DNA of 64,000 nucleotides from Acidicapsa ligni (GTDB taxonomy: Bacteria; Acidobacteriota; Terriglobia; Terriglobales; Acidobacteriaceae): positions 992,001 to 1,056,000 of the forward strand of contig NZ_JAGSYG010000001.1 of the NCBI RefSeq assembly GCF_025685655.1. Reading direction: 5' to 3'. The notes beneath the pieces were generated by a model. It did no database searches and was not told where the DNA came from. It was given only the letters and a program-made list of their open reading frames with translations. Position numbers and translations under genes: made by a program. Shown in pieces: positions 43,958-46,107 of this stretch (position 1 is the stretch's first letter; each line of letters starts with the position of its first letter).

Positions 43958-44344
43958 TCACGCAGCGGCTTGATCTGAAGCGGTAAGGGTTGAGTGGTTG
44001 TCGTTCTTTGCGTGGGCGTTTTCGACGCCGGGAAGAATCTCCACAATTTCGAAATAGCGATCCCATATTGGCGTGTCGCGGAGTTCTTCTACGAGTTGTT
44101 CGTAGGCCTGGTGGCTTGTCGCTTCCCACATCCATAGATCTGTGATTCGCGCGGAATAAAACTCTACATCGTAGAAGCGCAACGTCACGTTTGTGCTGTA
44201 TTTGCGAAGGATCGGCGCGACGTAGGTCTTGAACTCGGAGATGCGTTGATCAGAGGTGAAGCCGAGCCACTCCGGGGTGGTTTTTACCAGCATGAAGATC
44301 GTAAGTGCGATCGGAGGGGTAGGGGATTGTTCCTGATAGGTCAT
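43958..44344 (-). CDS. Darcynin-family protein
   Basis: This 128-residue protein resembles the darcynin family: ALTIFMLVKTTPEWLGFTSD near the start, LRFYDVEFYSARITDLWMWE in the middle and WDRYFEIVEILPGVENAH near the end. The family has a small alpha/beta fold and no assigned function. The last 15 residues are not conserved-looking. It is divergent from a TetR regulator with only 81 bp between them, so TetR probably controls it. The family call is from memory of its sequence pattern. Confidence 0.75.
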   Translation of the reverse strand: MTYQEQSPTPPIALTIFMLVKTTPEWLGFTSDQRISEFKTYVAPILRKYSTNVTLRFYDVEFYSARITDLWMWEATSHQAYEQLVEELRDTPIWDRYFEIVEILPGVENAHAKNDNHSTLTASDQAAA

Positions 44345-45034: not shown

Positions 45035-45059
45035 CGCGGGGCTTCGTTTAGAAGGCAAG

Positions 45060-45236
45060 GGCTCAAGGGCAGAAGCGGATTCCTTCGGGAATGACAGGCA
45101 GAGCTGCAAGGGCAACAACAAAGGCAAGGGCTAACAGCAGATTCCCTTCGGGAATGACAGACAGAACCGCAAGGGCAACTGCAACTGCTAGAGCAACAGG
45201 AACTGCAAGGGCAACTGCAACAGCAAGGGCAACGGT
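45060..45236. repeat. Composite repeat, copy 4
   Basis: Two cores are present: a 14-base form (ATTCCTTCGGGAAT, 45079-45092) and the full ATTCCCTTCGGGAAT at 45141-45155. Hexamer-periodic sequence with GCAAGG, GCAACT and GCAACA units follows each core. The copy lies in the convergent gap between the TetR gene and the ECF44-like sigma gene. Confidence 0.85.
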
Positions 45237-45254: not shown

Positions 45255-45833
45255 TTATGTGGCTTGGCTTGGGTGGCAGGTGCAGTCGAGGCAGCCGTGT
45301 TCGGCGCAGGTGCCGCAGCAGCGGATGAGCTGCTTGCGCAATGCGGTTCGTGCTCGATGGGCGCGGACTGCGGCATTGCCGGGAGTGATGTCGGCTGACC
45401 TGGCGTAGGTGGATAGAGCGGTTTCTCCGAGATCTACTTCGCGTAACAAGGTGGCGTAGGCAGGTGTGAGCCGGTCCAGCGCACTGGCGATACATTGACA
45501 CGTCGTTTCGTGCAGAAGAGGCTCGAAGTTCTGAGATGGACTGGGCTCCGTTTCGAGCTCCTGTACCCAGCGTTCCAGAGCGGCTCCTTCGCTGGTGCGG
45601 CGGCGGTAGTGATCGATGATTGCATTGCGCAGAATGCGATAGAACCAGGCGACAGATGACTCCGCTGCGCGCAACTGGTTGCCTGTTTCAAGAGCGCGCA
45701 GATAGGCGATCTGCAGAATGTCTTCGGCGGTGGCGCGGTCGTTGACGCGGCGCTGGATGAAGCCGAGGAACTGGCGGCGCAGGCTGAGCAGCGAGTTGAT
45801 TGGGCTTCCGGTCATTGAGTGTTCGTGATGCAT
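45255..45833 (-). CDS. ECF44/CorE-like metal-responsive sigma factor with cysteine-rich tail
   Basis: This 192-residue ECF sigma factor has region 2 (FIQRRVNDRATAEDILQIAY, SVAWFYRILRNAIIDHYRRR) and region 4 (LDRLTPAYATLLREVDLGET, TPGNAAVRAHRARTALRKQL). The tail has six cysteines: Cys172, 173, 176, 181, 184 and 186 (CCGTCAEHGCLDCTC). Cys112 and Cys114 also form a CQC in the linker. This tail is the hallmark of CorE-type factors, in which bound copper or another metal switches activity without an anti-sigma protein. None is encoded nearby. The upstream gene on the same strand is a Cys-rich mini-peptide. The metal is inferred. Confidence 0.88.
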   Translation of the reverse strand: MHHEHSMTGSPINSLLSLRRQFLGFIQRRVNDRATAEDILQIAYLRALETGNQLRAAESSVAWFYRILRNAIIDHYRRRTSEGAALERWVQELETEPSPSQNFEPLLHETTCQCIASALDRLTPAYATLLREVDLGETALSTYARSADITPGNAAVRAHRARTALRKQLIRCCGTCAEHGCLDCTCHPSQAT

Positions 45834-45895
45834 CCTGGTTCAGAGGTCGGTTTTGGGGTTAGGTTTCGAGTTCAGTTCCGGGGTTCATTCAGGTT

Positions 45896-45921
45896 ACGGC
45901 AGGAGGATTGGCTCCTGCCGT
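45896..45921. terminator. Hairpin between metallothionein-like peptide and sigma gene
   Basis: ACGGCAGGAG pairs perfectly with CTCCTGCCGT around a 6-base loop, just 26 bp after the peptide stop. No T run follows on the minus strand, so partial readthrough into the sigma gene is plausible. It could set a high peptide-to-sigma ratio. Confidence 0.6.
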
Positions 45922-45947
45922 TTGTATTTGATGGTTGAAGGAAGCAC

Positions 45948-46031
45948 CTAGTTGCGAGTGGGGCAATTGCAGATCGGGCCACATTCACAAGCTGAACCGC
46001 AGGGGCAGATGGTTGATAGATTTGTTCGCAT
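45948..46031 (-). CDS. 27-residue Cys-rich peptide, metallothionein-like (three CxC hexads)
   Basis: The open frame reads MRTNLSTI and then CPCGSA, CECGPI, CNCPTR, N. It has six cysteines at residues 9, 11, 15, 17, 21 and 23, as three CxC pairs exactly six residues apart. AAGGAG lies 8 bases before the ATG, a strong ribosome site, and an ECF-type promoter pattern lies about 50 bp upstream. CxC pairs are typical metal-thiolate ligands, so it should bind Cu(I), Zn or Cd in the cytoplasm; there is no signal peptide. Together with the adjacent metal-type sigma factor it suggests a metal buffering unit. It is too short for automatic gene callers. Function is inferred from composition and context. 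Confidence 0.75.
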   Translation of the reverse strand: MRTNLSTICPCGSACECGPICNCPTRN

Positions 46032-46081
46032 GATGATTTCTCCTTGAACGTATTGAATTGGTTGGTACGTTCGAAATGGCT

Positions 46082-46107
46082 GACGCAGCGGGGCAGTAAA
46101 CATTACA
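46082..46107 (-). promoter_or_regulatory. ECF-type promoter pattern upstream of the Cys-rich peptide
   Basis: On the minus strand, TGTAAT (46107-46102) is followed after 16 bases by CGTC (46085-46082), the general layout of ECF-dependent promoters (an AAC/AAT-like -35 and a CGTC -10). It is 50 bp before the peptide ATG. No such pattern stands directly before the sigma gene itself. Confidence 0.5.

Follow-up and report, generated by a model that had tools for sequence, protein, structure and literature searches.

The locus

The window (the whole 64,000-nucleotide stretch of Acidicapsa ligni DNA that was analysed) holds a short gene for a Cys-rich peptide followed by a gene for a CorE-like ECF sigma factor, with an ECF-type promoter ahead of both (Table 1). 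The large genes flanking this unit encode a TetR regulator, darcynin and PEP carboxylase. No anti-sigma gene was found among these large flanking genes, and no copper gene beside the locus. The darcynin-family gene (window 43958-44344, minus strand; PF17074, E=7e-50) has no known function. Between the TetR and sigma genes, at 45052-45230, there are diverged direct repeats with CCTTCGGGAATGACAGGCAGAG and GCAAGGGCAAC units, which might be a dispersed repeat.

Table 1. Features of the peptide-sigma unit, in window coordinates
Feature	Position	Strand	Remarks
-35 element TGTAAT of ECF-type promoter	46102..46107	minus	
-10 element CGTC	46082..46085	minus	16 nt after TGTAAT
5'-UTR stem-loop GAACGTA-13 nt-TACGTTC	46046..46072	minus	directly before ribosome site
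Shine-Dalgarno AAGGAG of peptide gene	46040..46045	minus	8 nt 5' of ATG
Cys-rich peptide gene, 27 aa	45948..46031	minus	6 Cys = CxC-x3-CxC-x3-CxC
Intercistronic hairpin, peptide-sigma gap	45896..45921	minus	10 bp, loop 6
CorE-like ECF sigma gene, 192 aa	45255..45833	minus	PF04542, TIGR02937 matches
CXC linker motif C112-Q-C114	45492..45500	minus	between sigma regions 2 and 4
Sigma C-terminal Cys-rich domain, residues 172-186, CCGTCAEHGCLDCTC	45276..45320	minus	six tail Cys

A preliminary description, made without database searches, had proposed a metal-sensing unit here, and its structural claims held. The 27-residue frame with three CxC pairs at an exact period of six is present on the minus strand, preceded by a strong ribosome site and by the TGTAAT-N16-CGTC pattern (46107-46082); a hairpin follows the frame, without a U-run on the minus strand, and the sigma frame (45833-45255) ends in a six-Cys tail. 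The second conserved hairpin, in the 5'-UTR, had been overlooked.

The peptide

The peptide has the sequence MRTNLSTICPCGSACECGPICNCPTRN; its CxC pairs are residues 9/11, 15/17 and 21/23. With six Cys among 27 residues, three CxC pairs and no F, W or Y, it meets the sequence criterion for the metallothionein class. Its N-terminus is hydrophilic and, as read from the sequence, carries no signal sequence. Corresponding peptides of relatives are Cys-rich and 20-45 residues long, with 6-11 Cys and variable spacing and length; a CPCG-x2-C-x-C core is common to most of those aligned.

The 27-residue frame is a conserved gene, beyond chance. Between close pairs of loci, third-position and synonymous changes are prominent, including TGC/TGT exchanges in conserved Cys codons. 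Differences by codon position (first/second/third) are 1/3/12 between the peptide genes of L019 and L027, and 3/2/7 between those of L057 and L061.

No Pfam or NCBIfam model matched the window peptide or eight relatives above its curated cut-off; the best metallothionein-model score was for Metallothio_2, below cut-off (E=0.041), in one relative. A PDB search with the peptide gave no match. The suggestion that the peptide may be undescribed thus stands as far as these models go, and prior description is not excluded.

Linkage to the sigma factor

Sigma homologues were sought in 200 genomes of the order with a cut-off of E<=1e-30, and 64 of the 200 have one. At 43 of 72 homologous sigma loci a Cys-rich frame of 21-45 aa with a ribosome site lies directly upstream on the same strand. 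The preliminary description had named lack of conservation of the CxC peptide beside ECF44 genes as a refuting result; when checked in relatives, the claim survived. Peptides also occur in more distant classes, with the promoter motif present at L117, L133 and L134 and absent at L138.

Other arrangements were also found. At three loci (L041, L042, L064) the peptide gene is divergent from the sigma gene and the promoter points at the peptide. The L149 copy is 1.4 kb upstream of the sigma gene and separated from it by another gene, and the L144 copy is solitary, at a distance of 130 kb; both of these copies keep the promoter, the 5'-UTR hairpin and the ribosome site. Since the peptide has its own promoter when divergent, 1.4 kb or 130 kb away, it is a target in trans and not a leader. 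In L067 the promoter is kept and the peptide is apparently frameshifted.

A peptide profile matched in 11 of 200 family genomes, and all 11 of these also have the sigma factor. Most of the peptides behind the profile were linked to the sigma gene, and divergent forms are poorly detected by it, so this co-occurrence tests exclusivity only in part.

One subclade nested in the peptide clade (L034, L037, L056, L065, L068, L075, L077) has lost both peptide and promoter. In six of these seven loci the tail motif CAEH has a different residue in place of its His, reading for example CAQA, CART, CAGA or CARN. This suggests that the sensor has been rewired toward unknown targets.

Promoter and regulon

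TGTAA[TG]-N16-CGT[CTG] occurs shortly before the peptide ATG in all 43 same-strand loci, always with a spacing of 16 nt. Over 95 sigma loci there were 84 occurrences of the motif, against 2 for the reversed motif. TGTAAK-N16-CGTY has a single match in the 64-kb window, where shuffles lead one to expect 0.10.

Across the whole source genome TGTAAK-N16-CGTC has seven matches including the window site; the other six are inside or antisense to genes, or have no plausible start behind them. A wider regulon in the source genome was rejected, no other motif match preceding a plausible gene. The chromosomal copA on contig 3 was likewise rejected as a sigma target; the gene is present and the motif is absent from it. 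In three related genomes motif counts were near background. The sigma factor's only recognisable target in its own genome is then its own operon, as judged by exact motifs (weaker targets would escape such a search) and with recognition of the promoter by the sigma factor inferred.

At plasmid CorE-like loci outside the phylum, TGTAAN-N16-CGTC was found near the sigma gene, but the Cys-rich peptide was not. L139 and L141 (Nitrospirota, alphaproteobacterial plasmids) have TGTAA[CG]-N16-CGTC just 3' of a CorE-like sigma gene, and from these sites the promoter consensus may extend beyond Acidobacteriota.

Hairpins and ribosome sites

A perfect 5'-UTR stem of at least 5 bp occurs in 32 of 43 loci, where 6.4 are expected, and is built from 27 distinct arm sequences. 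In a 20-sequence alignment the covariation score of this stem was 0.348 against 0.140 in shuffles, with none of 500 as high, and it was also above all slid controls; neither the number of pairs nor that of pair types exceeds the controls. Hairpins of at least 8 bp occupy the peptide-sigma gap in 19 of 43 loci (0.4 expected). A role for the intercistronic hairpin as an intrinsic terminator for the operon was rejected, since the U-run is absent on the minus strand. An Rfam search gave no match.

The Shine-Dalgarno duplex in the window is -8.5 kcal/mol for the peptide and +0.1 for the sigma factor, and the peptide has the stronger site in 41 of 43 loci (mean -8.3 versus -2.7 kcal/mol). We infer from the hairpins and ribosome sites that the peptide message would be stabilised and heavily translated, while little sigma factor would be made.

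The sigma factor as probable sensor

Region 2 of the sigma factor matches PF04542 (E=9.5e-13), meeting the criterion for ECF architecture. Region 4 is weak (PF08281, 0.023, below cut-off), and TIGR02937 covers residues 17-169 (E=8e-16). A CXC motif in the linker is a feature of CorE-like sigma factors (PMC8999054), and C112-Q-C114 is conserved in all 69 aligned homologues. The tail pattern C-x2-C-x4-C-x2-C-x-C corresponds to CorE Cys181/184/189/192/194. Residues C173, C176, C184 and C186 are the four invariant CorE-like Cys (CorE 181, 184, 192, 194), and C181 corresponds to CorE Cys189, on which activation by copper mainly depends (PMC3107203). The sigma factor is CorE-like by these sequence hallmarks, so the proposed CorE/ECF44-like identity is supported (PMC8999054, PMC9023288); copper-dependent activation is inferred.

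In CorE2, which responds to Cd and Zn (PMC8999054, PMC9023288), Cys174 sets the Cd/Zn specificity, and CorE lacks it (PMC9023288). The window sigma factor has A177 in place of this extra Cys, which would directly follow the CorE Cys184 position, and does not meet the criterion for the CorE2 subtype. The CorE-type spacing is found in 93 of 94 homologues, and CC in only one, L059, whose tail, CGTCC-TSASSNCTC, is CorE2-like (Zn/Cd) and whose promoter and peptide are unchanged.

Exchange of the peptide for a copper pump

Among peptide-less loci, the 26 with enough downstream sequence have the same motif on the stop codon of the sigma gene or directly behind it, a position where it occurs in no peptide locus. 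A P-type ATPase follows in 24 of the 26; the exceptions are L136 and L078 (no ATPase found in the 1.5 kb available). In most pump loci the TGTAAG -35 element of the copA promoter includes the TAA with which the sigma gene ends. This overlap (motif offset -2) is seen in L052, L062, L070, L074, L076 and others.

The linked ATPases that were sampled score 507-608 bits with TIGR01511 (copper-translocating), against a cut-off of 397 bits, and copper models outscore cadmium models. Multicopper oxidases are linked to the sigma gene in some relatives. On the basis of the copper-ATPase relatives and the CorE-like tail spacing, and without a copper gene at the window locus, we infer that copper is the most likely metal.

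On the sigma tree the peptide and pump states require five changes, and the association therefore arose or was lost several times. In L073 the peptide, sigma factor and copper ATPase stand in one row behind a single promoter; this locus could be an intermediate between the two outputs. The promoter before copper ATPases of sister lineages is a comparative link that was not available to the preliminary description.

Proposed mechanism

We consider it likely that the locus is an autoregulated metal-response operon, in which a CorE-like sigma factor and a metallothionein-like peptide share one promoter, with induction and metal binding both inferred. When metal is in excess, copper being the most likely, the sigma factor would sense it with its CXC linker and its Cys-rich C-terminal domain and would need no anti-sigma factor. 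The sigma factor would then direct RNA polymerase to the TGTAAT-N16-CGTC promoter of its own operon, whose first and most strongly translated product would be the 27-residue cytosolic peptide. The peptide may form thiolate clusters with Cu(I) or another soft metal, lowering the free metal that keeps the sigma factor active, so that the sigma factor would go off and the response would limit itself. In sister lineages the same sigma factor and promoter would drive a copper-exporting ATPase instead of the peptide, and in one case both.

The comparative support has been shown computationally: gene conservation, promoter-peptide linkage, the relation in trans, the copA swap, the CorE hallmarks, the contrast in ribosome-site strength and the conserved hairpins. 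The conserved linkage and promoter thus back the earlier proposal that peptide and sigma factor form a metal-sensing unit. The identity of the metal, its binding, promoter recognition by the sigma factor and feedback shut-off are inferred, and no expression, proteomic or metal-binding data stand behind the operon model. As part of this whole explanation the peptide is probably a minimal cytosolic metallothionein acting as a Cu(I)-thiolate buffer, where again metal binding is inferred. In Myxococcus, Cu(II) switches CorE on and Cu(I) switches it off (PMC3107203), which complicates the simple buffer model.

Alternative explanations

Another metal. The same circuit could serve Zn/Cd (or Ag/Hg) instead of copper, which is possible but unlikely. 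In its favour are the response to Cd and Zn of CorE2, a member of this sigma group (PMC8999054, PMC9023288), the affinity of CxC-rich peptides for a range of soft metals, and L059, which combines a CorE2-like CC tail with the same promoter and peptide. However, the window sigma factor and 93 of 94 homologues lack the additional Cys174 of CorE2, the linked ATPases favour copper over cadmium models, and multicopper oxidases are linked in relatives.

Metallochaperone. The peptide might give metal to, or take it from, the Cys-rich tail as a direct modulator of the sigma factor and not as a detoxifying buffer. The strict co-occurrence of peptide with sigma factor is in favour, and so is a proposal made for CorE itself, that a metallochaperone, not identified, acts upstream of it (PMC3107203). 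We regard this as unlikely. The sensor seemingly does not need a peptide, since none is encoded next to it in the CopA-type relatives, whose linker and tail are the same; moreover, the peptide takes the promoter position of the efflux pump, which is the effector's place, and its sequence is too variable for an obvious protein contact.

Leader peptide. The frame might be a uORF of the CruR kind, making translation of the sigma gene depend on metal or cysteine as sensed by its Cys codons or by the nascent chain. The peptide does precede the sigma gene on the same strand at 43 of 72 loci, flanked by conserved hairpins, and there is precedent for a copper-responsive uORF (PMC9426467). Against it, the peptide gene is divergent in L041, L042 and L064, and the L149 and L144 copies lie 1.4 kb away and alone at 130 kb with a promoter of their own; the peptides stay Cys-rich although their Cys vary in number (6-11) and spacing, and the intergenic hairpin has no U-run. 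The CruR-type position in cis is true of the window locus, but it is not required in relatives, and the peptide does not qualify as a member of that class. Because divergent and unlinked copies exist, the leader reading was rejected as the main explanation and is very unlikely.

Modified peptide. That the peptide is the precursor of a RiPP or bacteriocin is all but ruled out and was rejected, the only support being a match to a bacteriocin precursor model far below cut-off (E=0.96), while none of the genes examined had a recognisable modification enzyme next to it, the peptide has no leader or signal sequence, and copper RiPPs of the bufferin type come with Sec signals and MNIO enzymes (PMC12452194).

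Comparison with known systems

Among the known systems close to the autoregulated buffer operon that we prefer are those of the Myxococcus xanthus sigma factors CorE and CorE2, once classed as ECF44 and now placed in ECF238. The CXC linker and the C-terminal Cys-rich domain are shared with both, and the five-Cys tail spacing with CorE. Neither has a linked anti-sigma gene, as at the window locus, and their links to copper ATPases and multicopper oxidases recur among relatives of the window sigma factor. The output differs, being a tiny Cys-rich peptide plus the sigma factor and not a pump or oxidase, and CorE Cys206 has no equivalent in the window sigma factor. The CorE paper lists acidobacterial members, and metallothionein is nowhere in its text (PMC3107203).

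The copper metallothionein of Neurospora crassa (PDB 1t2y, 25 residues) is of similar size, with seven Cys mostly in CxC and no aromatics. However, it is fungal and without detectable homology to the peptide, and the likeness is convergent at most. SmtA/BmtA, PflQ2 and MymT are Cys-rich cytosolic metal-binding proteins, as the peptide is inferred to be, and MymT belongs to the copper-responsive RicR regulon (PMC10141476). They are about twice as long as the window peptide, and differ in Cys pattern and regulators.

Bufferins (DUF2282, Buf2) are also small, Cys-containing, copper-sequestering peptides with sigma genes in some clusters, but they are exported, MNIO-modified and anti-sigma-linked (PMC12452194). 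The window peptide does not meet the criteria for a bufferin or MNIO RiPP, its N-terminus being hydrophilic and the identified large neighbours not being MNIO enzymes. The CruR uORF of Bordetella pertussis is also a short frame ahead of a copper-related operon; it acts in cis as a post-transcriptional sensor (PMC9426467), whereas peptides of the window type are also found divergent or unlinked.

In the open-access literature searched, an acidobacterial CorE-like sigma factor with such a peptide is undescribed, which does not exclude prior description. For metallothionein, Acidobacteriaceae and copper together, the same kind of search returned only a community survey of metal pollution.

Significance

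A bolder reading, which as a joint claim we favour by a small margin only, is that these peptides make up an undescribed family, widespread across the Acidobacteriota and comprising the smallest metallothioneins of bacteria, each forming with a CorE-type sigma factor a sense-and-sequester switch behind a single promoter. A buffer would here replace the efflux pump as output, and the peptide would set the shut-off by withdrawing metal from the tail.

Metallothionein-like peptides of 20-45 residues are probably missed by gene callers and are not covered by Pfam/NCBIfam models, and this family sits in one of the most abundant soil phyla. CorE-type sigma factors would gain a clean promoter consensus and a new kind of output. 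The many natural swaps between pump and peptide behind one promoter make metal specificity and feedback directly testable.
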